Below are positions 5,831-64,000 of a DNA stretch of 64,000 nucleotides, in pieces. The first letter of the stretch is position 1; every line of letters begins with the position of its first letter. A model generated the notes under the pieces. The model was given only the letters and a program-made list of their open reading frames with translations. It searched no databases and was not told the origin of the DNA. Made by a program: the position numbers and the translations under genes. The stretch is from Polytrichum commune (taxonomy: Eukaryota > Streptophyta > Polytrichopsida > Polytrichales > Polytrichaceae): positions 4,710,001 through 4,774,000 of the forward strand of contig OX485809.1 in NCBI GenBank assembly GCA_950295325.1, given 5' to 3'.

Positions 5831-6094
5831 CAATGCAAATACACCCAAATCATGAGTGGAGCGCACAATTAAAGGCATTGGCACATCTTCTCCAAGAATG
5901 AAAATAGATGTCAATAGAATGCTAAGAACATTAAAGGCACAAACAACATCAAGTCAAACATTGGGAGTTGCATCCTAAGTTGCCTTCATTTGCGTATAAA
6001 CTTGAGGTAAGCAATAGATGTCTTACTAACTCATGAAGCTTGCAAGCTTAACATTGGATTCATGAAAATGTTTATGACTTTAAAGAACAAATAC

Positions 6095-6352: not shown

Positions 6353-6952
6353 CTATGGAAGTCTCATCATAATTAACGTCCACCATGTTAGTTTGAAGGG
6401 CTTAAACTAGAAGTATTTTAGTGACATTGAGTTGTTGTGCTCAAAACGGAAAGAAACAACAAATGCAATTCATACAAAATTTAGTTAGTGGTTCCAAAAC
6501 TTGGTATTTATCATGTTATATTGAACAAACAAATTCTTGTTGAAGACCAACATCATGATTAAAGATCGTGAACTAGGTTCCAATATTGTTGCAAAGTCAA
6601 GAGTGATTGATCCAAATTGTAGCATTGAGACATCATACATCATCCCCTCATCGGAAGGTCAACTTACAAACTAGAATCTTGGAAATAACATTTTCGAACC
6701 AATCCCCGAAAATAAGTGTTCCAAGTGAAGAAAAAAATTACATGCATGGAATGATTGAGAATTATATGTTTTGTGTTGATAATCGCTTTTATTTCATTCT
6801 ATCCAAGTGAATCAAACTCATTTTGAATTTATAGTCATCGTAGCTTAGATTTGGAACGTACATGTACATTGATGTTGAGGTCTAACTTGCAAATTATGGC
6901 TAACACGGATCCACCAAGAATCAACCTTTGAAAAAATCATCAATAATATTAC

Positions 6953-7573: not shown

Positions 7574-9239
7574 CTTGAACTGAATGTTTATTCAAAAAAT
7601 GGTGTAAAAACCTGCAGAACCAACCATGTCAATTGGTAAATGACTAGACTACAATCTCCTACATAGACCAAACAACACAACTCTACAAATGTGCACCATA
7701 AACAAATAAACTTTATTTAAGAGATACATTATCAACAAGTTTCAATCGATCAAGTCACATAGTTTTGCAAGGATCAAAGCTTAACAAGACGGCTTGCACG
7801 GCCATTCAAACATTGCAAACTCTGCCTGCTCTAGTGCATAAAGATTTCACGGTAGGTTGCCCTGAAACCAACCAAGTAGAGACAGTTGGGGTCCCCTCTG
7901 CACCACTACTCTACCCAAGAGTGAATCAAATAAGACCAGACCAATATGTTTCAAAGACAACCGTCCCCTGGGATTAGCCACACTTTGGAACCATGCGGCA
8001 AAATAAAACTGCACACTCACTGTTGACAGCTTCAAGAACATTTCAGATATGGAATCAAACTGCGGGCATACCGAGATACACTCAAAGTAATTCAATGTAA
8101 GCTAATGCAGTTTGGGAATGCCTGGAGCCCCTGAGACAAATTAACACAACATATTCGTGCAGTTTGAGGGGTACCCAGGCTGTCGATTAAGGTTGTTCTA
8201 AGTCTTCATCAAAGGCCTTGAGAGAACTGAGAACAGCCTGCAAAAGCAGAACAAGAAGGACTCCTCTGCTATTGAAATTTGATTTCTCTTTTACTGCGCA
8301 AGAAGGTTGTGACAAAATTTATGATTGGGATGTGCAGCTTCCACACCATAGCCGTGTATGTAAATTCAAACTCAGTACTTGCCCTTTCAAAAGGTACAAC
8401 AAATGAAGTGTTACGCCGATCTCCATAGCCGAAGCCGATGGTAGATATATATTAGTGAAATAGGTTGTAAGGATAGAGTTTCAAACAAACATAACACAAT
8501 ATGTTCCTGTTGGTCGGGGGCCCTAGGTCGATCGAGACTACATCATTAGCACTTGTACCCCTCCAAGGAACACGTATTTGGTTGCGCCTGTCTTCCCATG
8601 TCAAGCTTCTAAGTTGACACTCATGTGCTTAAGCAATGGAAATTGATCGTGCACATAAGAATGATAACCAAGTACTACTCTTGTGGAACATGGAATTTAA
8701 CAGACTAACATTGATTAATATCCCTCGCATACCAACCTCGTAGAACACTATTACTATTAGCCAAGCACAAAAACTAAACTGTCGGTATAAGACTTCGTGC
8801 ACTCACGCTTCCGGTCGGTATTTCTCAGCGCTTACAAATGAGAGCTTGTCACATTTGTGCCAACATGTATACATGACACAACACAGACCAATACTTTCAA
8901 GTCTTCCCTAGTCTCAGTTGCTTGGACAAATCTCTTTTCCAACAATGGCAACTGTAGTCACCCATGACACTTAGATGCTTGAGAAATGAAAGGCGGTTGT
9001 GCATATAAGATCAATAACCGGATACTACTCTTGTGGAACCTAGAATTTAAGAGACTCGCCTTGCTTACAAATCAAATCCGGTGTAGATTTATGAAGGGAG
9101 TCAGAGATCGAAGCCCCTTCCAATATCGATGGCTACAAAAATCACCCAACGCATCCCATCCATTAGCATCCCGCGCATCCCAACCTCGTAATACAATATG
9201 TACACATATCAAGTTAGACCAAGCCGTGGTAGCTTTGAG
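7574..9239. other. Gene-less stretch upstream of the TNL gene
   Basis: No credible coding region is seen. Two loosely related passages (about 8630-8760 and 8975-9200) share TACTACTCTTGTGGAAC and a CCAACCTCGTA phrase, suggesting an old internal duplication. The TNL promoter should lie just right of 7573, but I see no convincing TATA box. Confidence 0.4.
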
Positions 9240-33400: not shown

Positions 33401-35464
33401 TTTAGAGTGGTCCGAGAGGGTGTTGTATATGGGGTTGGTTCTCCATGCTGTTTCTAGTGGGGTTTTTTTGACTGGGAAAGTTTTGTTTTTGGTGGTTACA
33501 TGTATTTCATATTCTCTTTTGAGTAGGAATAGTGTCCGTGCTATAGGGGATCTAGAGCACGCTTGTTGTTTTAGTTTGGGTAGGTGTAGGGAGCCTCCGT
33601 ATTTAGCGGATATGTATTTGGTTAGGCCTTGATAGATGGTTCCTAGTTGCCCTGGATCGTTGAGGGCTTGTAGTAGTTGCTGACCTATACAATGAATGTA
33701 GTCTGGGAGTAGTGAGGTCATATTTATGCCGAAGTTTTCATGGGGTAGGTGTGTGAGGATATTGGCTGTACTTTTTGGTATGTTGCAAGTTTCTTTTGTT
33801 ATTTTACTGATTATTTTATCAAGTTTTTTAATGTCGGGTTTTGAAAAGGGGACCGCATAGTATGCGTAGGCAATCCGAGGTTTTATGACGGTATTAAGGA
33901 TTTTGATTTTTTGTTTTAAGCTTGCCGGGGAGGCGGCGAGTAGTTTGCCTTGTTGTTTGGCTTTATTTAAGGTGAGTTCTTTTTGGAGATTCCATTTTAG
34001 GGATGGCACTAGTTGGATGCCTAGGTATGTGTATGGCTCATTTTGTGTAAGGGTTGGGAAGTTTTTGGATTTATACCTAATGTTTTGGGATTGGATGAAC
34101 GCTTTAAAGGTATTAGGTTTGAGTTTGGACTTGTTGGGACATCCGGTGATGGCGCATTTTGATAAGTTGAGATCCATGTGCGCCCATTTGGCGAATTTTT
34201 GGAGCTTAGTTATTTGAGGTTGAATATTTTGAATTTTGTCGGTAATAATGGCTAGGTCGTCGGCATATGCCGAGGTGGTGCATGTGGATGGGGACGTGCT
34301 AAAGTGGTAGCCCATATTGCCCTTCTCTAGCCATCTTAAGAGTGGTTCTAGAAAGATTATGAATAAATATGGGCTAAGGGTATCACCTTGTATGGTACCT
34401 CGGTTAATTTTGATGGGAGGCGTGGTTCCGAATAAATTATCCGTGAAGGCGGTGGTAGAGTGGTTATAGATGTTGCCTACTATTTCGATGGCATCTAGGG
34501 GGTAGTCTAGGTCGGCCATGATAGCTAGGAGTCTTGCGTGGTCTATAGAACCAAAAGCATTTTTAAAGTCTATGTATGTTAGATATATATCTTTATTTGT
34601 GAGTCGTGCATCTTCGAGGGCGGCTATTAGCGTTTGTATTTGCCTTGAGGTATTACGTTGGGGGCGGAAACCTTCTTGACTGAAGTGTAGTATGCGGTTT
34701 CTTTCCCCGTAGTTTGTAAGGAGGGTTGTTAAGGTGCTAGTATATAATTTATATATTGTATTAGCTAACGCTATTGGTTTATAGTTGTTGAGGTGAGTAG
34801 GGTCTTCTTTTTTATGGAGTAAAATAGTTTTACTGTGTTTCCAGGCAGTTGGAATTTCCCGTTGTTTATAGCAATGTAGGAATAATAAGAATATAAGGGT
34901 TTGGCATTGTGGGGGTAATATCTTGATGATGTCGTTGGAAATGTTGTCTGGGCCGGGAATTTTACCTTTGGTTAATTTTTTTACACAATTGTCATATATT
35001 TCTCTAGTGAATTGTAGGCTTATTTGTGGGTTTTGAGGTCCGCGTTTGTCTAGTATGATCCCGTCTTGTGAGTGCCATGGGTATTTTCGTATGGCACACA
35101 TGCATATGTGTGGGTGGTCTATGGTGTCATCGCAAATGGGCGCTTGTCTTTGAAATGATATTTGTTGGGCGCGGTATATTTCATTGGCGATTTCTGTGGG
35201 TTTGGTAAGTATGTTATCATGAGAGTCTTTTATGCAATCCAACGAGCTTTCGGTTGATGGTTGGAAGATCTTTTTATGGATAGTCTTGGGTTTGGTGTTG
35301 AGTAGGGCTCTATATTTCTTGATGGCGAGTTTGCAGTTGATCGAGGTTTGTTTGGCGGTAATTTTGTAGGCGTCTATTTTGGCCGTTTGTCCTATATGGG
35401 CTAGGTTCTCAATCCATTGTTTGTGGGTGGTGGGGTTTGTGGGGAGGGGGGGGGATGTTGACAT
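30416..35464 (-). CDS. LINE ORF2, C-terminal part: reverse transcriptase, RNase H and CCHC finger (1,682 aa)
   Basis: Uninterrupted frame. RT: GKIPGPDNISNDII (about residues 167-180), the first catalytic Asp in TYIDFKNAFGSIDH (D299), RGTIQGDTLSPYLF (355-368) and YADDLAII (400-407). RNase H type I sits near residues 1205-1340 with TYTDGS, RAELNAI, FTDSLNS and AHTCITGNEIADALA, a complete acidic set. A CCHC-type finger CTLCHKNERDTWPHLLSTC follows. About 800 residues between RT and RNase H are long for the class and have no motif I recognise. The protein copies element RNA at a nicked target; RNase H removes the template. The frame joins the endonuclease part through a 9-base homopolymer near 35446-35454, where one base is out of register. 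Confidence 0.93.
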   Translation of the reverse strand: MSTSPPLPTNPTTHKQWIENLAHIGQTAKIDAYKITAKQTSINCKLAIKKYRALLNTKPKTIHKKIFQPSTESSLDCIKDSHDNILTKPTEIANEIYRAQQISFQRQAPICDDTIDHPHICMCAIRKYPWHSQDGIILDKRGPQNPQISLQFTREIYDNCVKKLTKGKIPGPDNISNDIIKILPPQCQTLIFLLFLHCYKQREIPTAWKHSKTILLHKKEDPTHLNNYKPIALANTIYKLYTSTLTTLLTNYGERNRILHFSQEGFRPQRNTSRQIQTLIAALEDARLTNKDIYLTYIDFKNAFGSIDHARLLAIMADLDYPLDAIEIVGNIYNHSTTAFTDNLFGTTPPIKINRGTIQGDTLSPYLFIIFLEPLLRWLEKGNMGYHFSTSPSTCTTSAYADDLAIITDKIQNIQPQITKLQKFAKWAHMDLNLSKCAITGCPNKSKLKPNTFKAFIQSQNIRYKSKNFPTLTQNEPYTYLGIQLVPSLKWNLQKELTLNKAKQQGKLLAASPASLKQKIKILNTVIKPRIAYAYYAVPFSKPDIKKLDKIISKITKETCNIPKSTANILTHLPHENFGINMTSLLPDYIHCIGQQLLQALNDPGQLGTIYQGLTKYISAKYGGSLHLPKLKQQACSRSPIARTLFLLKREYEIHVTTKNKTFPVKKTPLETAWRTNPIYNTLSDHSKIQSQKYLDKLYTYGITTLSQILNKTNTSILTPEEFRITYKNAPKTIKAALQQAQILFPQPQQPAPQTTPQTTQHPTQTTDPNPILGNAIHKIIKEKTTTRKDKWGAQAIKTTYLCQWQTTNNTTQQWRTEEELLHPDNIFFNHNLLTITQYHTATTTQNTTNIYANYLTNTQTKDTKFIHPPLTITNLTLNIHECNPDKDIITNKPSITTHALGANVYDQKGNYIATLTLERLHWLWNQFSHNTLQHLTNFLQPPPQDFETEILWLLQRYITILPRKKPKTIQPNNLHQTLPPEITKTLIESFQITHSYYSSPLTCPTQLTQYNSPHTRDILFGSIGKANSAKWTGHGLAFPTDHNTTLEALHWARMAAKEDAQTITILIINHKDWTPQQIPLTNPDIHILATIPPHTITYNPTPEWPKYYQYTEPSLTSIICVHNQGTILNNTQIPTALQRILKNTTHTHIDIHPIKPTPTHYNVKFSNAWKNAPKTTSLQTINTHIIPLPSTFTNTYPLKFHPQQCTYTDGSFIPPTKNSEGQIEGNTAGSGVYSPNNNTKISEGLPGYQNILRAELNAILIAVKNIQLAKIDTHIFTDSLNSIYLINNHIHRPTSQHHHPDKLLIAAIVRHIYWTPHKIHIHKVRAHTCITGNEIADALANEGTTKEKPNTTPRIHTAHSTPYWLASCPTATHDGAIRNLRTFITKEHKTNEAALAKHKFPYVDKWLSNTQINQKLSNHFWQDEKIPDTQITQTLKFRYAQYMGNHRKNIFWPITHPNPNCTLCHKNERDTWPHLLSTCEHPFLKGLRIARHNKAVHLIAQTLQANKNTRFFTLTNAGHFNNQPQEQTVPEWLLQCTCHPNPCQCLAKLRPNILCIIGAPKQIQPPISPSPEHKIQFIEFTYCHDRFPKQAIIHKHTKYDPLNNIIQNNGWKTNPLITITAGVRGAIHEHSIENLTKINIPKSNIKKLMKDIHQNAIKYLTYLVLNKRKLDNKQKPVPPPN

Positions 35465-36493
35465 TGTGGAGTGAGAGGAGTGTCATTATGTCGGGATGAT
35501 TATGTAATTGTGTGTGGTGGTAGTGGCAGGCTGCATGTATTGCTTTGCGGATGCTATGATATACTTTGAGGTGTGATTTCCAAATTTTTTGTTGCTTTCT
35601 TGGGAGGAATCCGCCTTGGATCTTGGCTCGGTTGGGGAGGAGGGGTGTGGATTGTGTCATGCATGTTTGCTCAACGCAACTGCTGAGAGAGTTTAAGATT
35701 TTTTGGAAGTTAATTTGGGCTTCTTCCCATTGTGGTTGAGTGAGTTGTTCTTGTTGTAATATGTCTATTGGATTTAATATGTCAAGATTTTTTTTATCTA
35801 GGAAGGTTGTTAGGAGGTTTTGGATATTTATAGGGGATATAGGATAGGTGATCCTAGGATTGGTGTTAGGTGTTGTGTTTGGTTTTTATAATTATAGTGT
35901 TTGGGGCTAATTGTAATTGTACCGGGTAATGGTCCGAATTTTGGTTAAGGTTAGTGATTGTGTGGCTTTGTAGGGAGGCGTGGTTTGGGAGGTTAGACTA
36001 AAATCCATCAATGTGGCTGGTCGCGGTGTAATTGTGTTCACCTTGCCTTGTGTATGTTTCGTGGTTATTAATCGTTTTAAGTCCTAGTCTTTGTGTGAAG
36101 TGAGCCCATTCATGGTCATGTAGGTTGGGAGGGGATGTTATTCCGTTTGATGATCGTCCTTTAAGGAGGATGTCTCGGTTGAAGTCACCTCCTAGTATGA
36201 TGTGGTGTGTTGAGTGATTTTGTACTAATGTTTGGATTTGGTTTTGGATTTCTTGTATTAGGTGTAGGTCTTGGGGGTGTGTAGGCATGTACATATTTAT
36301 GAGGAGTATGGGGGTGATTGGTTTATTTTTGATGGTGATGACTTGTAGGTATGGTGAGATTGTGCTCGGTGTGGGCATTTTGGTGATGTTTTCATTTGTG
36401 TGGATGGTTTTAGGTATCATAGTTAGGGTACCCCCTCTAGCCGGGTTGTCCCTAGAATATATGTTTTGGTTTGGTGTTGTGGTATTTGAGTTA
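35465..36493 (-). pseudogene. LINE ORF2, middle part: APE-endonuclease C-terminal half, broken
   Basis: In frame with 36420, the reading gives YSRDNPARGGTLTM, INMYMPTHPQDLHL, HHIILGGDFNRDIL and SHIDGF. A TAG at 36000-35998 follows, and then the same frame continues to QNSDHYPVQLQL, the catalytic His region. These are standard apurinic-endonuclease motifs of LINEs (GDFN; SDH). Frame changes occur near 36490 (in a TA-rich spot) and between about 35870 and 35660, after which PNRAKIQGGFLPRKQQKIW leads to the RT frame. Confidence 0.75.
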
Positions 36494-38470
36494 TTATATA
36501 TAATTTGGGAATTTTTTGTCTATATATGTTGTGGATTTTAGTTTTTGGAGTTTAGTTTCTTGGATGAGTATGATATGTGGGTCTTTATGTATTGTTCGTG
36601 CGAGTTCTTGGATTCCAGGTAAATTTGAACTGATATACCCTGTATTCCAGGTAATTATTTTTAATGTGGAAGTTTGGTGATTGTCCGTGTCTATGTTGGT
36701 GTTCGGGCTAAGGTTGGGGTGTATTATGTCATGTGTGGAGTGGTAACCATGTATGGTTTGTATACATTTGCTTAGCTCTAGTAGTATTTGTGGGGGTATA
36801 TGGGGTATTTCTTTTTGTAGGATAGGCATAGTTATGTTTTCCCCTTTGGCTATTTTTTCATTTATGTGTGTGTATGTTTGTGCTATGGTAGTAGGTGGTG
36901 TGTGGTGGTTGATGGTGTGTAAGTGTTGTGTGTGTAGGGAAGTGTATTCCGGGGATCTTTGTAGTCTTTTGAGTATGGTGAGGCATCGGGGGTCGATGTC
37001 TTCAACCATTTGTTGGTCGTATATTTGTGGTGTAGGTCCATATGTTATTATGAGGGCATAAATTTGGGAGTGTAGTGGGTGTTGTGAGAGTATTGGTTTG
37101 TGACGGTGTATGTTGGTTAGTTCTTGGTTAGGTGAGTCTTGTGTTAGGTGTGTTGAGAATAGGTTTTCTAGGTGGGTGTATGAGGGTTTAAGTGAGGTGG
37201 TATTAGGTATAAAGTAATGTTTTTGTCTTTGTGTATAGTCCCGGGGGAGATCTTTAGTTATATGTACGGGTGGTCCGGGGTTAGGATGTATGTCGCCGCT
37301 AAGGAGTATGAGTACTTGGAGGTCTATAATATATTTGGTTAGTTTGTATAAGGATGGGTGTTTGTTATGGATGTGTTGATGTTGGTGTGAGTTGTTCGTA
37401 TGAGCGGGGTTTATTTGATGGATATCGGTGGTGTATCTTGGTATTATTATTGTAATTATAATACTTAAGGGTATAGTTTTTCTTGTTTGGTGTGGGGGCT
37501 TTGGAGGTTTTTTGTGGTATATTGTATCTTTTTGGGTTGTGTTGTTAGTTTGGTGAGGTGTTTGTTGATAAGTAGTGTGTGTGTGTTGAGGGTGTGTCTA
37601 AGTTTGCCAAATGTTGAGCGTATGCTCTTTATTATAGCAATAATAGAAGAACCAATACATAAAGTTGGGTATGAAGAAAAGTCTTTGTCTTTGTGTGTAC
37701 ACTTGGGGGAGGTTTTTGGTAATGTATGAGATTGGTCCGGGGTTAGGTTGTATATCACCGCTAAGAAGTATTAGTGCGTGTAAGTCTCTAATGTATGTAG
37801 TTAGTTTGTGTATGGTTGGATGTTTGTAGTGTGGGTGTTTGGTTGTGTAAAATGTGATGTGTATGGTGGTATGGTGTATGCCTATATGTTTTGGGTATTG
37901 GAATTGTGGTTGTTGCGGGGGGTGAGGTGGTGTGGGTATTGGGGGGTCTATAGGGGTTGTGGTGATTTTGTGGTGTGGTATTAGGTTCCTTTTGTATGTG
38001 GATGTGACATATTTATTATGTGTGTGGCTAGATGGTTTGAGTGTGTGTGGGGTGTGCTTATAGGGTGTGGGTAGTGTTTGTGGGTTTATTATGGATTTAG
38101 GGTGTGTTTGGTTAGTGATGGGGAGGTGATTTAGCCCTAGTAGGATTATGATGTTGAGTATGAGTCTTTTTCTTGGACTATATTGGGAGTTGAGGTGAGA
38201 GTTCGGTGGTTTATTGTGGGGTGTCTTGTGTGTAGATTTGTGGGGTTTTAAGTGTTGGGGGTTAGTGTGGGTGTGTTTGGAGGGTTTGTAGTGTGGTATT
38301 AGTGTGGTTTTATGTTTTGTGGTATGTGGGTGAGATGAGATAATGTACATAAGACATAGACATCCTTGGGATATGAGCAATATTTTGAACTCTTTATTGT
38401 GGAAAAAGAACAATACATAATAAAGGAAGTGTGGGAGCCATTTATGATATTCTCTATGGGCACTAACCAT
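36494..38470 (-). pseudogene. LINE ORF2, N-terminal part: two 2A-like motifs and start of the endonuclease
   Basis: A single frame of 659 codons carries one internal TAG (37600-37598). The ATG at 38470 overlaps the ORF1 stop (ATGGTTAG). Two modules each carry a hydrophobic stretch (LILNIIILLGL; PLSIIITIIIP) and then LLSGDIQPNPGP (37759-37733 for the GDIQPNPGP part) or LLSGDIHPNPGP (37297-37271). The modules are 462 nt apart, so they are in frame. Downstream comes the endonuclease start LKIITWNTGY and IILIQETKL (the catalytic Glu). 2A-like NPGP sites at the N-terminus of ORF2 are known in other non-LTR elements, where they release the leader co-translationally. Confidence 0.78.
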
Positions 38471-48399: not shown

Positions 48400-49373
48400 T
48401 GTCGCACACCTCTCCATGAGGAGTGCCCGAAACACCATGGGCACAAGGGGGACCCCGGAGTGACACCCGGGACTTGTGGCGCCGTTGGTGAGAGGGCCCA
48501 AGTGATCCTAGTGTGGGTGAGGGCCCCGGGCGTTGGGAACGCCTCCCACCCACAGAGAGTAGGAGGCACAAGGGTAAGGCCATGAGCTATGCGTAGCTCA
48601 TGGCGTGGTGATTCTAGAATGCTCAACAACACCTCAATCGGAGGTGTGAGCTAGGAGTTATGGCCATTTGAGTGGGGCGCTGTCCCGGGACAGCGCCCTG
48701 GTACAGCAGTGCCTGGGAGTGATTCCCGGGACTGCCAAGGTTCAAACAGCCATAACTTCCTCCAGACTTGCCCGAATAGGGCAAGTGAGGAGTCCATCGG
48801 CATCTACGTGAAGCGTAGATGAGGATGGAGTGGTTGGTTGTTATGATCAGACATCATACAAGGAAGTTATGATGGTCTGAAGCTGCTGGGGGGGTTCAAG
48901 GCCCAGCAGCTAAAGGAGAATGTCCACTTGGCCCCAACTCTTGGTAGAGAGACAAGAGGTTGGTTGACGGTGGGGTAGGGGCCCCGCGTAAAGTCCTAGA
49001 GGCTTATATGGGTGAGGTGGTGTGGCCTCACCCACCCGAGGCCGAACGGCACGGCCTCCATGGGCTTTGGCCCATTGTGAGGCCATAGTTGTCTAGTATG
49101 CTTCGGGTTGTTGTAGTGTTGCTCCGGCAATGCGATGATCAACATAAGATGGGACTTCCACGGATGGAAGTCCACATCTAAGGATTGGTTACCGATTAAG
49201 GGGTGAGTCCCGAAAGCAAAGTAGGAGGGTTGGTTCCCTCCTATGAACTATATGGTCCGGGGTAGGAGGAGCTAACCATTAGCATGGCGGTATGCGAAGG
49301 GTTAGCACTTGTAACCTTTGCTAGGAATGGAAAAATGGCAAGATTGTTAAGGGGGCTAGCACGGGTTGCGACA
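48400..49373. mobile_element. Solo LTR, family 1, copy 2 (974 bp)
   Basis: It starts TGTCGCACACC and ends GGGTTGCGACA, with ACTGG directly before (48395-48399) and after (49374-49378). It is nearly identical to 23345-24316 along its length. It interrupts CCGG-rich sequence continuous with the element region to its right. Confidence 0.9.
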
Positions 49374-52169: not shown

Positions 52170-53161
52170 TGACTTGGTTTCTTACTTCTTGACTTTCCTT
52201 GATTGATGTTTGCATGAATGATCCGGAGATCGTTAGCGGAGGAGAGAGAGTATGAGGAATAGGAGTTCTGGATAGGACATGGGAGAGGAGACCCGGATCT
52301 GATCCGGTTATTGCCTTGTAGATCCTCTCTGCGTATAGTGGGAGGGAAACCTTACTAACCCGGATTGGTTGAGTAACGTCTAGGTGGGATAGCCGCTGGG
52401 AGGATTGGGCGAGATCCGGAAGGGATCCGGACTCATGCCAATCTGATCTTCTGAAGAGGTCCCACCGCCAGGAATGCTACGATGTGAGCGGTGAGTGGTG
52501 AGCAGATCTCGTGAGCAGAAAATCAAAATTTAAAACTCCATTTAACTAAAGTTAGGGCCCCTATGACCGTGGATTTAGGACATATTTGAAGTTTAATTTT
52601 GGAATTATGAGGCCGATATTTATGGAGTGCCTAATTTTTAGGACCAAAAGTTTCTTAAAATTACCAACAAGTCCCTATGGCCGTGGGAAAATTCAGTGTG
52701 GTTGAGAAGATGGTGGACCTATGGGAAGAGGCCTCGGATCCGAGGCCTCTTTCTTGTGGGTAGGATATGCTTGAGAAATCAAAATGTTAGGTGTATTTGG
52801 TTTGGCTACTTGTCTTTAGATTGTCTACTAGTTGACGACCACAAAAGTGTAGTGTTATTTGAGAACAACGACAAGATGCATTCAACAAGACAATTGGAAT
52901 ATTAAAAACCACACCACACTTTATAAATCCAAACACTCAAACATTAACAAGTAACCAAGTGGTGTTAGAAAATATTTTGAACAATATAAAAAAAACGAAG
53001 TCAAAAGTTAACTTAAATATGCAATTTCATATATGCAATCCCAAAAACTCCGAAAGTGATACACATACAATGAATTCCATGCGGAATGAGTGCACAAACT
53101 GAAAAACCAACGGAAGAAAAAACGGTATATTAGATAGTACACAGACATTCACATGAAGCTA
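52170..53161. other. Gene-less stretch between the GC-rich element and the ParB/methyltransferase-like gene
   Basis: The GC-rich element fades near 52500. AT-rich sequence follows and should include the 3' UTR of the minus-strand gene ending at 53162. No coding region was recognised. Confidence 0.4.
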
Positions 53162-53450
53162 TTACATCAGATCCGAATCACTGTGATCACCTGATGATGA
53201 AGACATTCTAGAATCAGTAATATCTGCATCAGAGGAGGCCTGACCATCAGATTCTAAAGCTTCTATATCCAAAAACTCTAAAACTCTTCCCGGACGATAT
53301 TTAGATGTAAAAGTCTGATAAGAACCTCCAGCTAGTTGATTAGCAATATCATTTGCATATGTAGGAAGTTGCCAAGACTTTGGAGGGCTGGGATAGAATT
53401 TAGGGTCACAAAAAAAAGGCCGGTGAATAGGATAGCCCAATTTATCGCAT
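53162..53450 (-). CDS. Terminal exon
   Basis: After acceptor TTTGCAG: CDKLGYPIHRPFFCDPKFYP, SPPKSWQLPTYANDIANQLA, FLDIEALESDGQASSDADIT, ending DHSDSDLM at TAA 53164-53162. Cys/His residues near the start (CDKxGYPIHRPFFC) could bind metal; this is speculative. The tail is acidic and Ser-rich. Confidence 0.68.
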
Positions 53451-56400
53451 CTGCAAATGCCAATGGTACCATGTTCATAACTCAACTTTATAAGAAATGA
53501 CAGCACAAAACATAACACATGTAAGAGAATTTGTGGACCTTACTCACTTAGTAAACCGAGATCTTTTCACAATCCTCTCTACGGGGATATCTTCACCCTC
53601 AGGATCCTCTAAACTGGTGACACGGTCTTCAAGAGTGACTTCAGAGGCTGCTCTAGAGATAATCAATGGAGCAAGTAAGGCCTCAAAAATATCAACATCA
53701 GCCTCTAATGCCACAATGTGACGGTGCAAATTGCGGCATGCATGAATGGAAGATCCTGCAAATAAAGAAGTTGGAAAAAACTTAGTACAAAAATAACTAT
53801 GAATTTTGTAGACCAAAACAATATTAACGATTAACCAACTGAAATGGAAGATTACAAAGACATACCGGTCGCTGCCGTGCAGTCTAGAATAATATCCCAT
53901 GGGGAGCTACATGCTTCAATTAGCATTTGCATTAGAAGCACGGATTTTTCACGAGGCCCTCGCCATGGTGTGGATCCATTAGTTTGCTGGTCCTCACGAG
54001 AGACCAAGTTCTGGAGAATATCATCCCGTGCAACATCCACCCCATAAGGATCCAATGCAGGGACAAGGCGAAATGAAAACTTCGATGCAGGTGACCCCGG
54101 CACGCTCCTGACCGCCAATGAAATACCGAACCTCATGGTCTACAATGTACCAGACATAAAGAACAACATTAGTTTACAAAGTAAACAACACAACTGCATG
54201 AGTATAATACTTAGGTGGGTCTATACTCAGAACTACCTCAAGGATTAAATTGAAACTGAATGCGGTGATCAGCAAGAAGACATAAGGTTTATCTTACAGT
54301 TGATGCTGGATTTAATGGGGATGTGAGACGAAGGCGGTTCATTCCCCACCACTCTTTCCGAATTGCAAAACCATACGATTTGCAATATCCAAGAATATTG
54401 GACTTCGTACTCATGCGAAAAGGGTGAAACAAAATAATTGCCCCGTCGTCGTGCAGATGTTCGTCGGCAAAGTCAAAGAGTGGTTGTAACCACTCTTTCG
54501 ATTCTTGATTCCAAGCGGGAATGGACGACGGTGGGTCTGATATGCCAGGAACAGGAAGACCTTCCGGTATATCTGCAAGAATCAAGTCCAAACAGGGATG
54601 GTCCTCCGGAGAACCCTTGTAGTGCCGGATTTTGTCTTTTGAGTGCTGCACCCAGCTCAACCCCCAGCCACCCTTAGACTCAAATCAAATTCAGTCACAT
54701 ATCAACTCCTAACCCCTAACCAGATTCCCTCAACCCACAGTCAAGCTCAAATTCATATCAAAATCACTAACATATTAGACCCTAAACAGAGTGTGTCGGG
54801 GCCGAGAGACCTCTTACGAGTCCTACATTTCAATTTCAGAGTCTTAGAAAAATCAAAACTTTATACATCTACCCCCTACCAGAATCCCCTCTTCCCTCAT
54901 CCACCCTTAGACTCAAATCATAATCAGTCAAATATCAACTCCTAACCCCCAAACCAGATTCCCTCAACCCACAGTCAAGCTCAAATTCATATCAACACTT
55001 TGAAGCCTCGGCTCTAAGTTCAGATTTCAGTGCTCACTTTATATATGTCTACGTGGCCTCATTTCAGGTCAGAATCTAACAATATGAAGCCTCGGCTCTT
55101 AATTCATATTTGAAGTGCTCACTTTATATATATCTACGTGGCCTCATTTCAGGTTAGAATCTAACAATATGAAGCCTCGGCTCTAAATTCATATTTCAAG
55201 TGCTCACTTTATATATGTCTACATGGCCTCATTTCAGGTTAGAATCTAACAATATGAAGCCTCGACTCTAAATTCATATTTCGGGTGCTCACTTTATGTT
55301 ATTTTAGCTGGCCTCATTTCAGGTTAGAATCTAACTCTTTGAAAGTGGCTTTCGGTTTAGATTTCAAGTTCTCACATTATGTGGTTGTCCAATATATGGG
55401 TTTCGGGACCGAATCCTTCATTTTCAGGTCAAGAGGGTCACACCCTGAAGCCTCGGCTTCAAGGTTCAAATTAAAGGTGCTCACTTTATATATATCTAGT
55501 TGACCTCATTTCAGGTTAGAATCTAACAATTAGAGGCCTCGGCTCTACGTTCAGATTAAAGGTGCTCACTTTATGTTGTTTTAGTTGGCCTCATTTCAGG
55601 TTAGAATCTAAGTCTTTGAAAGTGGCCTATAGGCTTAGATATCAGGTTCTCACTTTATGTGGGTGTCCAATATATGGGTTTCGGGACCGAAACCTTCCTT
55701 TTGAGGTCTAGAGGGTCACACCTTGAAGCCTCGGCTTCAAGGTTCAAATTACAGGTGCTTACTTTATATATATCTAGTTGGCCTCATTTCAAGTTATAAT
55801 CTAAAGCTTTGAAGCCGAGGCTCTAGGTTCAGATTTCAAGTGCTCTCACTTTATGTTGTTCTAGTTGGCCTCATTTCAGGTTAGAATATAACACTTTGAA
55901 GCCTCGGCTCTACTTTGAGATTTTAGGTTCTCGCTTTATACATGTAGAGTTGGCCTCATTTCAGGTTAGAATCTAACAATTAGAGGCCTCGGCTCTAGGT
56001 TCAGATTTAGGGTGCTCACTTTACGTTGTTTTAGTTGGCCTTATTTCAGGTTAGAATCTAGAATTTGAAGGTTGGCTATAGGCTAAGATTTCAGGTTCTC
56101 ACTCTATGTTGTTTTAGTTGGCCTCATTTCAGGTTAGAATCTAAGTCTTTGAAAGTGGCCTATAGGCTTAGATATGAGGTTCTCACATTATGTGGCTGTC
56201 CAATATATGGGTTTCGGGACCGAAACCTTCATTTTGAGGTCAAGAGGGTCACATTTTGAAGCCTCGGCTTCAAGCTTCAAATTACAGAATCTCACTTTAT
56301 ATATATGTAGTTAGCCTCATTTCAGGTTATAATCTAACAATTGGAAGCCTCAGCTCTAAGCTCATATATCGGGTGCTCACTTTATATAAGTCTAGTTGGC

Positions 56401-59400
56401 CACATTTCAGGTCAGAATCAACCAATTTGAAGCCTCGGCTCTAGGTTCAGATTTCAAGTGCTCATTTTATATATGTCTAGTTGGCCACATTTCAGGTTAG
56501 AATCAAACAATTAGAGGCCTCGGCTCTAGGTTCAGATTTAATGTGCTCACTTTATATAAATCTAGTTGGCCACATTTCAGGTCAGAATCAACCAATTTGA
56601 AGCCTCGGCTCTAGGTTCAGATTTCAAGTGCTCATTTTATATATGTCTAGTTGGCCACATTTCAGGTGAGAATCAAACAATTAGAGGCCTCAGCTCTAGG
56701 TTCAGATTTAATGTGCTCACTTTATATAAGTCTAGTTGGCCACATCTCGGGTCAAAATCAACCAATTTGAAGCCTCGGCTCTAGGTTCAGATTTCAAGTG
56801 CTCATTTTATATATGTCTAGTTGGCCACATTTCAGGTTAGAATCTAACAATTAGAGGCCTCGGCTCTAGGTTCAGATTAAAGGTGCTCACTTTATGTTGA
56901 TTTAGTTGGCCTCATTTCAGGTTAGAATCTAAGTCTTTGAAAGTGGCCTATAGGCTTAGATACGAGGTTCTCACATTATGTGGCTGTCCAATATATGGGT
57001 TTCGGGACCGAAACCTTCATTTTGAGGTCAAGAGGGTCACATTTTGAAGCCTCGGCTTCAAGCTTCAAATTACAGGAGCTCACTTTATATATATGTAGTT
57101 GGCCTCATTTCAGGTTATAATCTAACAATTTGAAGCCTCGGTTCTATGTTGAGGTTTCGGGTGCTCACTTTATATAAATCTAGTTGGCCTCATTTCAAGT
57201 TAGAATCTAACACTTTGAAGCCTCGGCTTCAAGGTTCAAATTACAGGTGCTCGCTTTATATATCTAGTTTGCCTCATTTCTGGTTATAATCTAACAATTT
57301 GAAGCCTCTGCTCTAAGTTCATATATCGGGTGCTCACTTTATATAAGTCTAGTCGGCATCATTTCAGGTTAGAATCAAACATTTTGAAGTCTCGGTTCTA
57401 GGTTGAGCAAATACTCAAATTTTCTAACTCTACTGGTCACACCATTGAATTGACAAGATTGAAATGCATAAATTTAAAGGAAGAGCAGTACCTTGAGCAT
57501 GAATGTTTTCAAGTCGTTGTAGGAAGGGGTGAATTCATCCGTGTCACCGCCAAGAACTTCGTCCAATGAGGAGTTGAGAATGAGCTCTTCAATATGGATG
57601 TCGAGCTCCTCCCCAGATGTCATAATAGGTATTTGACTCAACTGCTCGTAGGACGAGTCGCGTTTTGTGCCTCTAGAAAATGTTGGAGCATGAGAACCAT
57701 ATTCATATGTGGGACTTGGAGCAACCGGACTCTTACCTTGTGGCTCCGGAGGGGGGTTCATCTTATTTTTCCCCTTTCTAGTGGACTTATCCAACGAATT
57801 CTGCACCTTCTCCCGCTCTTTTTGGTCAGCTCTCTCCTCAGCTTCCTTGACCCTCAGCGCTTTCTTTTGGTCCTCTTCAATGCGTCGTTTCATTGCCTTT
57901 GTCCTCTCATTTTCATCTTCTATGGCCTGTAAGTCAACCATTTCAATTCCAGACTCACCTACAGCCTCCCTTGATTTCCTGAGCTCAGTCTCAAAAGAAG
58001 GAGTGAAACTTAAAGCGCAATCAAGATACCAGGCACCGCCGGTAAGGTGAGAACTTGTCCACGTGCGTTCTTGAAGAGCCGAGAACATGCACGCTGAGTT
58101 TGATCTATCAAGCCATGTGTTCAAGAATACAGGAAGGTCATCTTTGGAAATAGTTCCTTTCGCCAAAAGCTCGTACTTAAAGTACTTGTGTTACGAAATA
58201 GCACATAACATTAACATCAACAACTTCTGAACTAGCAAAACAAAGAATATGGACTGAACCAATTACTGAAATTAATGAAAAGTCCTTAAAGATTAGAGAC
58301 GCACCGAAAAAGAACTCGGCGGACAACTAGGTCAGCTCCGTTAAATCCAACAAACTCGTCACCTTTTTTGAAGGAATCTTGTCCTCTGAAGTAGGTGCTG
58401 AAGGCATGGTCCCATAACTTCATGCGACAGTCTTCGATATACGCTGGCAATAACATGGGCTCACTGGCAATACTCATGTTGATAGGAACTCGGTCTTGAC
58501 GCATGGTCTCGTCAAAAATGAGACTGGCCTGTTCTGAGATCTGTTAAGCAAGAAAATAAGCATCAGTTGGACCAATTTCTAAATCAAGTCGATGAAATAA
58601 AGAATGATAGTTGTGTAAATTACATGCCAAAGATGAATTCAATGAACTGAAAATTGAATAGAAGCAGTGGACTTACTCCTGCCCAGAAACAAGCCTTTGC
58701 CAAGAAATTTGCCAATTTATCTTCGTTGATAGGCTTGGGAGGTAGCTTTCGGGCCTCACGAGTGGAAGCAGATGAATTAAAGTACTCTAGCCATTTTATT
58801 TTCATTGCCGGAGACGCCCTTGAAGTTGCAATGAGCTGCAACTTCTCTAAGTTGAGGTCCGGGGAAAGTGAGTTTAACGTGTAATGTCGCTCAATCTGAA
58901 AGACAGAGCTCTTGTGAGTTCCTCAGTCAAACGGATAAGCTTAAAAGATTGATATGGACAAAGGATCAGGGTGCGTACCTCACGTAGCCAACCGTCGGTA
59001 AGCTCCGGGTTCGCCACAGCAACCAATTTTCCCATTTTCATGCGAAGTGCCAGAGATCTCTTCTCAACTGCGGCTTTCATCGCAGCCGCCTTGTCAGCAG
59101 GGGAGACTTCTCCTTCTGATTGCTCCACAAGCTGACGTGCACCCTCGTCGGCAGCGAGACCCAGCTCATGCTACACAAAGAGAGAACAAGAACGAGGAAA
59201 CCAAATTTTGAAATGAAAATGAAATGAATAAGTTGGACAAGATGTTTTGGACAAAAGAACTGAACTAGAGCTAGACAAATGAGAGCACCCGAAATCTGAA
59301 CCTAGAGCCGAGGCTTCACATTGTTAGAATCTAACCTGAAATGAGGCCATCAAATCCAAAACATTAAGTGAGACCTGAAATCTGAACCTATATCCAGGGC

Positions 59401-62400
59401 TTCAATGTCTTTGATTTTAACCTGAAATGTGGCCAACTAGACTTATATAAAGTGAGCACCCGAAATCTCAAACTAGAGCCGAGGCTTCAAAGTGTTAGAT
59501 TCTAACCTGAAATGAGGCCAACTACATATATATAAAGTGAGCACCTGTAATTCGAACCTTGAAGCCGAGGCTTCAAAATGTGACCCTCTTGACCTCAAAA
59601 TGAAGGTTTCGGTCCCGAAACCCATATATTGGACAGCCACATAATGTGAGAACCTCATATCTAAGCTTATAGGCCACTTTCAAAGACTTAGATTCTAACC
59701 TGAAATGAAGCTAACTAAACCAACATAAAGTGAGCATGTGAAAAATCAAACTAGAGCCGAGGCTTCAAAGTGTTAGATTCTAACCTGAAATGAGGCCATC
59801 CAAACCAAAATAAAGTGAGCACCCGAATTCTCATACTAGAGCCTAGGCTTCAAAATGTTAGATTCTAACTTGAAATGTGGCAACTAGACTTATATAAAGT
59901 GAGCACCTGAAATCTCAAACTAGAGCGGAGGCTTCAAAGTGTCAGTTTCTAAGTTCAAATGAGGCCACTTAGAGTTAGAGTCTAACCTGAAATGAGGCCA
60001 ACTAAAACAACATAAAGTGTTTACCTTAAATCTGAACCTAGAGCCGAGGCCTCTTATTGTTAGATTCTAACCTGAAATGAGGCCAACTAGATAAATATAA
60101 AGTGAGCACCTGTAATGTGAAACTTGAAGCCGAGGCTTCAAAATGTGACCTTCTAGACCTCCAAAGGAAGGTTTCGGTCCCGAAACCCATATATTGGACA
60201 CCCACATAAAATGAGACCCTGAAATCTAAGCCTATAGGCCACTTTCAAAGATTTACATTCTAACCTGAAATGAAGCTAATTAAACCAACATAAAGTGAGC
60301 ATGTGAAAAATCAAACTAGAGCCGAAGGTTCAAAGTGTTAGATTCTAACCTGAAAAGAGGCCAAACACACATATATAAAGTGAGCACCCGAAATATCAAA
60401 TTAGAGCCGAGGCTTCAAAGTGTTAGATTATAACTTGAAATGAGGCCAACTAGATATATATAAAGTGAGCACCTTTAATTGAACCTTGAAGCCGGGGCTT
60501 CAGGGTGTGACCCTCTAGACCTCAAAAGGAAGGTTTCGGTCTCGAAACCCATATATTGGACAGCCACATAATGTGAGAACCTGATATCTAAGCTTATAGG
60601 CCACTTTCAAAGACTTAGATTCTAACCTGAAATGAGGCCAACTAAAACAACTTAAAGTGAGCACCCGAATTCTCATATTAGAGCCTAGGCTTCAAAGTGT
60701 TAGATTCTAACCTGAAATGAGGCCAAGTAGACTTATATAAAGTGAGCACCTGAAATCTCAAACAAGAGGCGAGGCTTCAAAGTGTTAGATTCTAACCTGA
60801 AATGAGGCCAACTAGACATATATAAAGTGAGCACCCGAAATCTCAATGTAGAGCCGAGGCTTCAAAGTGTTAGATTCTAACTTGAAATGTGGCAACTAGA
60901 CTTACATAAAGTGAGCACCTGAAATCTCAAACTAGAGCGGAGGCTTCAAAGTGCCAGTTTCTAAGTTCAAATGAGGCCACTTAGAGGTAGAGTCTAACCT
61001 GAAATGAGGCCAACTAAAACAACATAAAGTGTTTACCTTAAATCTGAACTTAGAGCCGAGGCCTCTTATTGTTAGATTCTAACCTGAAATGAGGCCAACT
61101 AGATAAATATAAAGTGAGCACCTGTAATGTGAAACTTGAAGCTGAGGCTTCAAAATGTGACCTTCTAGACCTCTAAAGGAAGGTTTCGGTCCCGAAACCC
61201 ATATATTGGACACCCACATAAAATGAGACCCTGAAATCTAAGCCTATAGGCCACTTTCAAAGATTTACATTCTAACCTGAAATGAAGCTAACTAAACCAA
61301 TATAAAGTGAGCATGTGAAAAATCAAACTAGAGCCGAGGCTTCAAAGTGTTAGATTCTAACCTGAAATGAGGCTACTTAGGAACCTTCTAATTGGGGTTC
61401 GATCCCGAACCCCATATATTGGACATCCACAAAATGTGAGAACCTGAAATCTTAACCTATAGCCCACCATCAAAGTTCACATATTTTACAAAATCATTAG
61501 GACTATTTCGTGACGCACCTGAAATATGAAATTTGTAAATACATGTAATGGTAACGAATACCAAGTCTTCTGAGACTTCTTGCCATTTTTGAGGTCGGTT
61601 GGACTCAAAATGTCATTGAATTGTTCAATTGACATAAGACCATACTTCTGAACCTTGAAGAGGGTATGGACAATGTTGGTCTTTACATGAGAGTCCTCTG
61701 TATGTCTAAATACAAAATCCAAATGGAAGATATTAGATTATCGTAGTAAGAAAGAAAGTGAAATCATATTGAATTTTCAATGAAAGATTATATATCAAAA
61801 GAGAATGAATATACTTGTTTATGTTGTGCATGACTTGCATAACAAGTCCATTTTTCCCCTTTATGTCCAGGAGAATTGAATCCACCAAATAATGCCAATC
61901 CTCATCAGTTCGGTGAAGTCTGTCAATGTGATTTAACCAAGTTTGACGCCTATGGTTGCCGTCGCACACAAAAAATATCAAATTTGTGAATGGAGCCAAC
62001 GCTAGATCCGAGAGGAGAAATGAGTTGAAAATGGCGTTTTTGGCGTCCCAAATAGGACCCCAAGAAGCTTTATCAGCTTCCGTCACTTCATGGGTATTTC
62101 CATCTTCATTGGTGATTGTAACATAAAAGACCGAAGCGCCTTCCCTGTATCCGTGCACAAATTCTTGCTCGAGCTTAGCAAGATCGGATGCCAGAGTTGG
62201 CCGTACCATTGGCATTGCCATCAATCTGCACAATGGAATATTAAATCGCGAAGAACTGTTTGGTTGAAATCTCAAGCTTGTAATCGTGGCCACAGAGTTA
62301 ACTTTTTGCCTGGTCCGAATCTCATCCTCACTACCTAGAAAGTGAGCATCATCTCCAAGAGACTCTTCTTCTACCTCATGCTCGTCCTCTAGTATATCCA

Positions 62401-62458
62401 TATCTGGAAGCTTTCCCTCCGATACTTGTGTCAAAGGTGGCGAAGATATAGCATGCAC
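53162..62458 (-). CDS. Multi-exon gene: ParB-like domain plus beta-class DNA amino-methyltransferase-like domain
   Basis: Exons: 62458-61815, 61705-61519, 59170-58979, 58895-58677, 58540-58316 (donor uncertain), 58184-57492, 54645-54298, 54139-53866, 53755-53548, 53450-53162. All other junctions are GT-AG and keep phase, giving about 1,090 residues. Order: acidic leader; ParB-like segment with VCDGNHRRQTW; helical middle; charged coiled coil; methyltransferase-like C-terminus with motif IV position LILADIPEG, then STPWRGPREKS (motif X region) and DCTAATGSSIHACR (motif I). The IV-then-I order is the beta class, as in bacterial N4-cytosine and N6-adenine enzymes. ParB plus methylase in one protein is common in phages and bacteria. 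The first exon(s) lie right of the 62459 acceptor and were not found. Confidence 0.72.
53548..53755 (-). CDS. Methyltransferase-like exon 3 (end of motif I)
   Basis: After acceptor TTTGCAG the split Gly codon is completed and the reading is SSIHACRNLHRHIVALEADV, DIFEALLAPLI, then LEDRVTSLEDPEGEDIPVER. This places SSxxACR after the TG of motif I as in active enzymes. Donor AA/GTGAGT at 53547. Confidence 0.7.
53866..54139 (-). CDS. Methyltransferase-like exon 2 (motif X and start of motif I)
   Basis: After acceptor TTGTAG: TMRFGISLAVRSVPGSPASK, LVPALDPYGVDVARDDILQN, GSTPWRGPREKSVLLMQMLI, SSPWDIILDCTAATG. The pattern RGPREKS followed by an LL..LI helix and DxxAxTG is that of N4/N6 amino-methyltransferases (AdoMet site). 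The exon ends one base into the Gly codon (G/GTATGT). Confidence 0.72.
54298..54645 (-). CDS. Methyltransferase-like exon 1 (degenerate motif IV)
   Basis: 116 codons after acceptor GTGCAG: HSKDKIRHYKGSPEDHP, then CLDLILADIPEGLPVPG, where beta-class enzymes have (D/N/S)PP(Y/F/W), then WLQPLFDFADEHLHDDGAII, LFHPFRMSTKSNILGYCKSY, GFAIRKEWWGMNRLRLTSPL. The strand-helix pattern after motif IV (DDGAIILFHP) fits a Rossmann-type methyltransferase. Donor ACT/GTAAGA. Confidence 0.7.
54667..55000 (+). repeat. Direct repeat of about 95 bp, 234 bp apart
   Basis: CCACCCTTAGACTCAAATCA...AGATTCCCTCAACCCACAG...TCAAATTCATATCAA occurs at 54667 and again at 54901, at the edge of the satellite-filled intron. Confidence 0.85.
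55000..57415 (+). repeat. Satellite array, plus orientation, inside the 57491-54646 intron
   Basis: The basic unit is 85 bp (for example starts at 55086, 55171 and 55256): GAAGCCTCGGCTCTA..., TGCTCACTTTATATATGTCT, GGCCTCATTTCAGGTTAGAA. Longer variants insert a segment with CCAATATATGGGTTTCGGGA and GACCGAAACCTTC near 55390, 55670, 56205 and 56990. No protein-coding role: open frames here are repeat translations. Confidence 0.92.
57492..58184 (-). CDS. Coiled-coil linker exon
   Basis: 231 codons: YFKYELLAKGTISKDDLPVF, HLTGGAWYLDCALSFTPSFE, then a charged coiled coil (ERTKAMKRRIEEDQKKALRV, AEERADQKEREKVQNSLDKS), a Pro-rich segment, and IMTSGEELDIHIEELILN. It ends TFMLK before GTACTG at 57491. 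The next intron (57491-54646) holds the plus-oriented satellite array. Confidence 0.7.
58316..58540 (-). CDS. Exon with EDCRMKLWDHAF block
   Basis: After acceptor TTAACAG: ISEQASLIFDETMRQDRVPI, MLLPAYIEDCRMKLWDHAFS, KKGDEFVGFNGADLVVRR. The strongest-looking donor (CG/GTGCGT at 58304) would break phase with the next exon. GTTCTT after CGA at 58316 keeps it. One of these is used, or there is a small defect here. Confidence 0.55.
58677..58895 (-). CDS. Helical exon
   Basis: 73 codons after acceptor CTTTCAG: IERHYTLNSLSPDLNLEKLQ, LIATSRASPAMKIKWLEYFN, LANFLAKACFWAG, ending at GGA/GTAAGT. Phase 0 on both sides. Confidence 0.68.
58979..59170 (-). CDS. Helical exon between the satellite introns
   Basis: 64 codons after acceptor GTGTAG: HELGLAADEGARQLVEQSEG, then DKAAAMKAAVEKRSLALRMK and NPELTDGWLRE, ending at GAG/GTACGC. 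Predominantly helical; no named domain. Confidence 0.65.
59285..61480 (-). repeat. Satellite array, minus orientation, inside the 61518-59171 intron
   Basis: Same family as 55000-57415, inverted: AGCCGAGGCTTCAAAGTGTT, TTCTAACCTGAAATGAGGCC, TATATAAAGTGAGCACC. Two long internal segments (around 59890-60350 and 60890-61340) are near-identical to each other, a recent higher-order duplication of about 1 kb period. Confidence 0.92.
61519..61705 (-). CDS. Exon after the ParB-like exon
   Basis: 187 nt restore the phase and read HTEDSHVKTNIVHTLFKVQ, KYGLMSIEQFNDILSP, LPLHVFTNFIFQ. The acceptor is TTTAG at 61706 and the donor CAG/GTGCGT at 61518. The following intron (61518-59171) is filled with the satellite family. 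Confidence 0.65.
61815..62458 (-). CDS. ParB-like exon
   Basis: It opens at an AG acceptor (GGTAG just above 62458) with VHAISSPPLTQVSEGKL and an acidic run (DEHEVEEESLGDD). The ParB/sulfiredoxin-like part spans about residues 85-205 of this exon: QEFVHGYREGASVFYV, LAPFTNLIFFVCDGNHRRQT, WHYLVDSILLDIKG. The DGNHRR motif at 166-171 matches the conserved DG(N/H)HR of ParB-like domains. The donor is AA followed by GTATAT at 61814 (phase 2). Confidence 0.7.
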
Positions 62459-62569
62459 CTACCAAAGAGTCAACACATTGTAGATCAAAGTAAGTATCAT
62501 TTGACCCAAATTGATAATGTTGCTTTGTAATTAACCTCTAACCATTAGAGCCATATAATGTGAGAACCT

Positions 62570-64000
62570 GAAATCTTAGCCTATAGCCCATCTTCAAGTA
62601 CTACATTCTAACCTGAAATGAGGCCAACTACACACATATAAAGTGAGCATTTGAAATCTCAAAGTATAGCCGAGGCTTGAAAGTGTTAGTTTCTAGGTTG
62701 AAATGAGCCCACCTAGGGACCTCCCAGGGAAGGTTTCGGTCCCGAACCCCATATATATTGGACAGCCACATAATGTGAGAACTTGAAATCTGAGCCTATA
62801 GCCCTCCTTCAAGGTGTGAGATTCTAACCTGAAATGAGGCCAACTAGACATATATAAAATGAGCACCCGAATTCTCAAAGAAGAGCCGAGGCTTCAAGGT
62901 GTAAGATTCTAACATGAAATGAGGCCATGTAGACTTATATAAAGTAAGCACCCGAAATCTGAACCTAGAACCGAGGCTTCATTCGTTAGCTTCTAACCTG
63001 AAATGAGGCCACTTAGGCACCTCCAAATGAAGGGTTCGGTCCCGAACCCCATATATTGGACAGCCACATAATGTGAGAACTTGAAATCTGAGCCTATAGC
63101 CCTCCTTCAAGATGTGAGATTCTAACTTGAAATGAGGCCAACTAGACATATATAAAATGAGCACCCGAATTCTCAAAGAAGAGCCGAGGCTTCATTCGTT
63201 AGCTTCTAACCTGAAATGAGGCCACTTAGGCACCTCCAAATGAAGGGTTCGGTCCCGAACCCCATATATTGGACAGCCACATAATGTGAGAACCTGAAAT
63301 CTAAGCCTAGAGCCCATCCTCAAATTCTACATTCTAACTTGAAATATGGCCAACTACACACATATAAAGTGAGCACTTGAAATCTCAAAGTAGAGCCGAG
63401 GCTTGAAAGTGTTAGTCTCTAAATTCAAATGAGCCCACCTAGGGACCTCCAAAAGAAGGTTTCGGTCCCGAACCCCATATATTGGACAGCCTAGGGACCG
63501 CCAAAGGAAGGTTTAGGTCCCGAACCCCATATATTGGATAGCCTAGGGACCTCCAAATGAAGGTTTCGGTCCCGAACCCCATATATTGGACAGCCACATA
63601 ATCTGAGAACATGAAATCTAAGCTTAGAGCCCATCCTCAAAGCTTCAAAGCTTAAGACTCTAACCTGAAATGAGGCCAACTAGACTTATATAAAGTGAGT
63701 ACCTGTAATTTGAACCTTGACGCCGAGATCTCAGGGTCTGACCCTCTAGACCTCAAAAGGAAGGTTTCGGTCCCGAAACCCTTATATTGGACATCCACAT
63801 AAAGTGATAACATGAAATCTAAGCCTATAGGCCACTTTCAAAGAGTTAGATTCTAACCAGAAATGAGGCCAACTAAAACAACATAGAGTGAGAACCTGAA
63901 ATCTTAGCCTATAGCCCACCTTCAAATTCAAGATTCTAACCTGAAATGAGGCCAACAAGACATATATAAAGTGAGCACCCGAAATCTCAAAGTAGAGCCG
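62570..64000 (-). repeat. Satellite array, minus orientation, upstream flank or intron
   Basis: Same family and orientation as 59285-61480, continuing out of the window. Here the palindromic segment GGTTTCGGTCCCGAACCCCA recurs densely, including three copies within 63457-63581. Confidence 0.9.

Follow-up and report, generated by a model that had tools for sequence, protein, structure and literature searches.

What is a methylase-like gene of prokaryotic type, divided into ten exons, doing in the nuclear genome of a moss? The question is raised by a stretch of 64,000 nucleotides from Polytrichum commune (contig OX485809.1, positions 4,710,001 to 4,774,000 of the forward strand), hereafter the window and numbered from its first letter, which carries on its minus strand a gene whose product has a DGNHR motif near the N-terminus and a beta-class amino-methyltransferase-like domain towards the C-terminus. 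A sequence-only reading had suggested that this locus could be a domesticated or horizontally acquired ParB-methylase of the plant. The locus belongs, as an accessory gene, to a large MULE-like DNA transposon, recently active and with many copies in the moss genome, and its status as a host gene is excluded. With regards to function, the reading favoured here, at a probability of roughly 0.4, is that the encoded protein would act as a sequence-specific binder of the element's own tandem arrays, shielding the element from silencing as the VANC protein does for VANDAL transposons.

The window copy of the transposon spans 52469-72494 (20,026 bp), its right part running past the end of the window, and is flanked at both outer ends by an identical 10 bp. 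It is collinear with a copy on contig C5 (copy A) over the region 52468 to 72494, except for length changes in arrays, and homology between the two begins and ends at the terminal repeats. The ends were studied in eight copies, with both ends located in seven. Six of these seven have an exact 10-bp duplication outside both ends at one constant offset, the match extending 2-3 bp further in two of the six, and the seventh (C1:53.3 Mb) lacks it; in the remaining copy (C1:65.8 Mb) one end only was located. Target duplications of MULEs measure 9-11 bp, a length with which the 10-bp duplications, accompanied by inverted ends, agree. The terminal repeats at both ends hold a short GAGCGGT repeat, the copy number of which varies among copies of the element.

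Copy numbers were taken from protein searches of the window's own genome (408 Mb, 64 contigs), all counts being lower bounds: at least 249 matches were obtained with exons 7-10 as the query, at least 194 with exons 1-2 and at least 87 with the transposase described below. Matches to the two exon queries are spread over all seven large contigs; many have open frames and an identity of 90 to 98%, and exons 1-2 have further listed matches at 62-83% and 39-43% identity. The plastid psaB of this genome is moss-like, its highest scores being against the PDB chains 8htu, 6l35 and 7ksq (1,701-1,705 bits, the next at 1,667), which are Physcomitrium structures. The open exons and bacterial-type domain are what a single domesticated or acquired host gene would offer, yet the copies are many, dispersed and nearly identical, with inverted ends and target duplications, and that explanation is rejected, its chance being practically nil. 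The refutation applies to the window locus, and a domesticated copy may still exist elsewhere in the genome; the transposon identity of the carrier is virtually certain.

The gene runs from 62401 to 53162 as ten minus-strand exons in order, giving a large product of approximately 1,077 residues, slightly below the 1,090 or so first proposed. Chaining of the exons is borne out by GT/AG borders with matching phases at all junctions except that of exons 5 and 6, and by an identical exon order in diverged copies. The donor previously held uncertain, at exon 2 (61518), is conserved in two diverged copies of other subfamilies (L040 and L041), and the N-terminal peptide VCDGNHRRQTW lies in exon 1 as described. 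Because the exon order is the same in diverged copies and constraint is present at both ends of the protein (estimable in seven of ten exons), a merger of two separate transcripts is unlikely.

The transposon also encodes a transposase-like protein (68172-71897 in window coordinates), divergent from the methylase-like gene and probably with one intron, in which an E-box-like NLSETVHNKW and a SWIM-like CTCPDF..CKHLYF are recognised by eye. This protein has no Pfam match, the MULE transposase profile included, which is why the element is called MULE-like and not filed as a MULE. Linkage was assessed for 87 listed transposase matches, 57 at 90% identity or more and 30 at 59-62%, against 247 ParB-like and 106 methyltransferase exon places, these being listed matches entered after merging from part of the rows of four lists. 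A divergent ParB-like exon lies within 20 kb of 24 of the 57 close and 18 of the 30 distant transposase matches listed, compared with means of 0.30 (maximum 2) and 0.15 (maximum 1) in shifted controls; with methyltransferase exons within 25 kb added, the counts become 32/57 and 18/30, or 50 of all 87. Among the matches listed, other orientations are rare, with convergent ParB-like exons at 0 close and 1 distant match and same-strand ones at 1 and 3, and the corresponding counts for methyltransferase exons being 0 and 0 (convergent) and 2 and 3 (same-strand).

A third small gene (L025:2319-2965, minus strand) is situated between the methylase-like gene and the transposase gene; at 27/57 and 14/30 listed transposase matches it lies within 10 kb in divergent orientation, counts for which no shifted control was made. 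Small open reading frames upstream of the arrays were considered as 5' exons and rejected, as they end in a stop; they are therefore read as a separate small gene. Very long frames surround some transposase matches, and the one retrieved (L071) runs through a stretch of N. As a separate observation, a distant family member is preceded on its own strand by protein-kinase-like exons (L042, C1:9656501-9660000), with weak Pfam support (E 0.21 for one of three frames).

Comparison of the window copy with subfamily L041 gives a nonsynonymous rate (dN) of 0.188, a synonymous rate (dS) of 1.789 and a dN/dS of 0.10 over 973 codons, an approximate ratio because dS is near saturation. By exon, dN/dS is 0.08-0.40 in the seven of ten exons with estimable dS, which is saturated in exons 2, 4 and 6 and high in some others. 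The protein is under purifying selection between subfamilies. Within the subfamily, dN/dS is 0.70 against copy A and 1.08 against copy B, values that would suit a passenger gene captured by the transposon without any role; such a passenger is, on the other hand, largely refuted by the constraint seen between subfamilies, and linkage persists for transposases at only about 60% identity, leaving this explanation very improbable. We read the two scales together as a protein kept by selection between bouts of transposition that drifts after insertion. L040 (C1:18374501-18382500) is a chimera which joins the 5' half of one lineage (exons 1-6, L041-like) to the 3' half of another (exons 7-9, window-like); it carries 37-bp arrays, as does L012.

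The C-terminal domain is, by its sequence, beta-class amino-methyltransferase-like, which upholds this part of the sequence-only reading; its motif order is IV then I, as in phage and bacterial ParB-methylases but in a plant nuclear gene. PF01555 matches the spliced window sequence at 32.3 bits (cut-off 26.7; E 1.3e-7), two single-exon relatives at 30.6 and 32.2 bits, and all four family members at a limit of E 10 (best 3.5e-9). Furthermore, a four-member profile finds the methyltransferase DpnA in PDB at 3.2e-8, two PHROGs DNA-methyltransferase families match 4/4 members at a limit of E 1 (best 2.4e-8), and in an hhalign comparison with three phage-type ParB-methylases the domain aligns end to end (columns 14-240) with their methyltransferase domains (probability 96.3%, E 2e-9). 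As to viral or prokaryotic relatives, scans starting from short peptide patterns confirmed none in viral contigs (alignments of both domains) or in prokaryote genome contigs (methyltransferase alignment). With the methyltransferase domain as query, a tblastn search of phages gave 21 matching records, all weak among the 12 listed (best listed E 0.07); with the DGNHR domain it gave none.

Catalysis is another matter. The canonical motif IV, [DNS]PP[YFW], occurs at none of 28 loci examined (26 distinct copies, the window being L001 and L006 being L027), and the protein is filed as methyltransferase-like rather than as a canonical enzyme for this reason. The position of DPPY reads [DEQ][ILMYF][PS][EDY][GN] in nine variants: DIPEG at 16 loci, EYPDG at 3, QFPDG and DIPEN at 2 each, and DIPYG, DIPDG, DMPEG, DLPEG and DISEN at 1 each. 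The first D is thus replaced by E at 3 loci and by Q at 2, and the aromatic fourth residue is kept at a single locus, L035 (DIPYG). An active amino-methyltransferase that attaches to the element encoding it and marks this element with N6-methyladenine or N4-methylcytosine would account for the significant profile matches and for the glycines of motif I and the acid of motif II, which are largely retained, and the same has been proposed for the ParB-methylases of algal transposons such as Ectocarpus Sola1-1 (PMC12477816). Against it stands the altered motif IV, given that the bdelloid enzyme N4CMT loses activity once the Ser and Tyr of this motif are replaced (PMC8885841). Active methylation is accordingly judged unlikely, loss of standard catalysis being suggested by the motif, and of the modifying or modification-sensing roles proposed earlier for DNA or RNA, modification is less likely than binding because the catalytic motif is altered.

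The N-terminal part had been called ParB-like, which is not confirmed. Support is from the motif, with DGNHR in 16 of 20 members and the wider [DE]G[ND]H[RP] in all 20, and no profile test (Pfam, NCBIfam, PDB profiles or hhalign, with 3 to 20 members) adds to it. Pfam ParB (PF02195) matches none of three members nor any of three further ones, NCBIfam ParB matches 0/3, a PDB profile search returns no ParB, and hhalign against phage-type ParB domains gives 0.3% probability with 4 members and with 20. A single-sequence structure model of exon 1 is uninformative on the fold, with a predicted local distance difference test (pLDDT) score of 36. In view of the missing profile match and this model, membership of ParB is treated as a lead, unproven and suggested by the DGNHR motif. 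The ParB-like naming of a similar protein in algal transposons strengthens the lead by analogy, without being a test of the moss protein (PMC12477816). A search of the genome with PF02195 (limit E 0.01) matches contigs C10, C12 and C23 only, which are probably contaminants of the assembly; on C10 (47 kb) and C12 (61 kb) there are frames, bacterial or phage in type, that fuse ParB to a methylase (L043 and L044), that of C10 apparently with an intein-like insert, judged by eye.

Noncoding parts of the window element contain tandem repeats of approximately 85-bp units. An 18-bp core, CTGAAATGAGGCCAACTA, is present there in 74 copies with up to 3 mismatches, distributed over the upstream region, intron 2 and, inverted, intron 6 (Table 1). 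At the same tolerance the core is absent from the exon blocks, the transposase gene and the first 52,467 bases of the window; it is likewise absent from six loci of other subfamilies. Genome-wide, 599 exact cores are found versus 0 for a reversed control, and 77 of 100 listed core places adjoin listed coding matches of the element (hand count). Subfamilies L041 and L040 have arrays of other periods in the same gene, and L035 and L051 short two-copy repeats only. The mutual inversion of the intron-2 and intron-6 arrays means that one pre-mRNA could form long double-stranded RNA.

Because this anatomy resembles the VANDAL/VANC system, an anti-silencing role is favoured. The moss protein would bind the tandem arrays in the noncoding DNA of its own element in a sequence-specific manner, and the array-bound protein would counter silencing of the element by the host. 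In this mechanism the DGNHR domain would serve DNA binding or loading, and the methyltransferase-like domain may have been reused as an S-adenosylmethionine- or DNA-binding module which no longer methylates in the standard way. A broader version, in which a prokaryote-type methylase has become, within a land-plant transposon, an anti-silencing protein that no longer methylates and is specific for arrays in the transposon's own introns and upstream DNA, with each subfamily having its own protein-array pair and the system an origin independent of VANC, is doubtful as a whole. The protein might instead be a transposition helper that assembles on arrays or ends and works with the transposase, silencing being unaffected. 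Linked copies are nearly always divergent from the transposase (one convergent, a few on the same strand), the protein is conserved across subfamilies and the third small gene travels with both, all of which a helper would explain; the array core is, however, missing at both terminal parts of the element, and for 37 of the 87 listed transposase matches the lists give no divergent ParB-like or methyltransferase exon in the vicinity, a figure to be read with incomplete lists and degrading copies in mind. A helper is therefore also considered unlikely.

Several observations weigh against the anti-silencing proposal. The exon-5/exon-6 junction of the window copy is broken, since the conserved 3' splice site of exon 6 has lost its AG there (copies A and B have a canonical site), so that the matching phases first reported hold at the other junctions and not at this one. 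The near-saturated dS, the high within-subfamily dN/dS, the transposase-like protein without a Pfam match and the absence of profile support for ParB, all given above, belong here as well. As for the arrays, 23 of the 100 listed core places form two clusters without a listed coding match, and two distant families (L038 and L039) possess the protein but show, over the 8.5 kb read, no arrays with a period of at least 20 bp. Words common to the arrays of three subfamilies do not exceed shuffle level, the observed number of shared k-mers being reached in 305/400 shuffles for 6-mers, 104/400 for 7-mers and 49/400 for 8-mers, and no conserved binding site was found among them. In addition, tandem arrays can form without any binding protein.

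Among known systems, the repeats targeted by VANC occur in the introns of VANC and VANB and upstream of VANA, in a single orientation, and differ between related elements; the VANC protein binds these VANDAL arrays and removes silencing (PMC5735166; PMC10398659). The moss element is likewise a plant DNA transposon with a transposase and accessory genes; its introns and upstream regions also contain arrays of motifs in one orientation, which vary from one related element to another and are present in the window subfamily, L040 and L041 and not found in L038 and L039. Unlike the moss protein, VANC is not described as methyltransferase-like in the parts of the source consulted, and anti-silencing is demonstrated for VANC and would be an extrapolation for the moss (PMC5735166).

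Giant algal transposons have been reported to carry ParB-methyltransferase genes of unknown role, an example being Sola1-1_Ec32 of Ectocarpus, a DNA transposon of 21.5 kb with an accessory gene of 1,104 residues (PMC12477816). As such accessory genes are published, the moss gene belongs to a kind already described. The resemblance extends to an element of about 20 kb, a gene on the strand opposite to the transposase, a product of about 1,100 residues (1,104 there, approximately 1,077 in moss), a prokaryote-type methyltransferase domain and a proposed ParB-like domain, unconfirmed in moss. Unlike the algal elements, which reside in brown, green or red algae, the moss element has a 10-bp target duplication and a MULE-like transposase, and it has a documented altered motif IV and arrays, the two being compared by description. 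The moss gene therefore differs from the published kind in host, transposase type, catalytic motif and array architecture, with constraint measured in the moss. No land-plant transposon with such a gene was found in the literature at the level of the titles and abstract openings listed.

Phage and bacterial ParB-N6/N4 methylases (L043, L045 and L046) have a methyltransferase domain collinear with that of the moss protein by profile comparison; unlike the moss protein they retain an intact DPPY, the ParB part of L043 is recognised by Pfam and there is no comparably long region between the two parts. Bdelloid N4CMT, a captured gene which writes N4-methylcytosine (4mC), with an intact SPPY, a chromodomain and transposons as targets, is similarly a bacterial-type beta-class amino-methyltransferase tied to transposons in a eukaryote, but is not called transposon-encoded in the consulted parts of its description (PMC8885841). 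Fungal DNA transposons carrying TET/JBP genes also have a gene of DNA-modification type aboard, from another enzyme family and in another host kingdom (PMC12730594).

Coordinates of the features are collected in Table 1. Elsewhere in the window, by eye, frames at 4114-7591 (minus strand) resemble the TIR and NB-ARC parts of a plant resistance gene, and long frames at 30419-37597 (minus strand), one of 1,688 codons, resemble a LINE-type retrotransposon. Approximately 975 bp of the window (48400-49373) occurs twice in opposite orientation in copy B (C6:18780001 onward), at positions 3796-4767 and 5253-6226 of that copy, flanking a 485-bp piece of the transposon, and perhaps represents a fold-back element.

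Table 1. Features of the transposon copy and its methylase-like gene, in window coordinates.
Feature	Position	Strand	Remarks
Target-site duplication (10 bp), left copy	52459..52468		right copy at 72495-72504, beyond the window
Transposon part within the window	52469..64000		collinear with copy A on C5, array length changes aside
Terminal inverted repeat, gene-side end	52469..52500	+	matches the other end inverted; inner limit approximate
Exon 10	53162..53450	-	stop codon 53164-53162; near-identical in many copies
Exon 9	53548..53755	-	end of methyltransferase motif I and acidic residue of motif II (ALEAD)
Exon 8	53866..54139	-	C-terminal half of methyltransferase domain; motif I DCTAAT at 53884-53867; PF01555 match
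Exon 7	54298..54645	-	motif IV region; DIPEG at 54573-54559 replaces DPPY
Intron-6 array	54994..57407	-	units of about 85 bp; 23 cores, all on the same strand; Tandem Repeats Finder (TRF) and motif count; limits approximate
Exon 6	57492..58184	-	conserved acceptor AG lost in window copy
Exon 5	58305..58540	-	frame and splice borders
Exon 4	58677..58895	-	frame and splice borders
Exon 3	58979..59170	-	frame and splice borders
Intron-2 array	59263..61482	+	17 cores, inverted relative to the intron-6 array; limits approximate
Exon 2	61519..61705	-	donor kept in L040 and L041
Exon 1	61815..62401	-	probable start ATG at 62401; VCDGNHRRQTW at 61969-61937; 20-member alignment
Upstream array	62553..64000 in the window, on to about 66235	+	34 cores over the whole array

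The same kind of gene as that of the algal transposons is thus found in a moss, in many recent copies together with several diverged subfamilies, and selection, motif decay and array turnover are therefore measurable. If the anti-silencing reading is true, two unrelated proteins would have reached the same strategy in plants; if the protein is an active enzyme, the moss would harbour a transposon that sets its own base mark.

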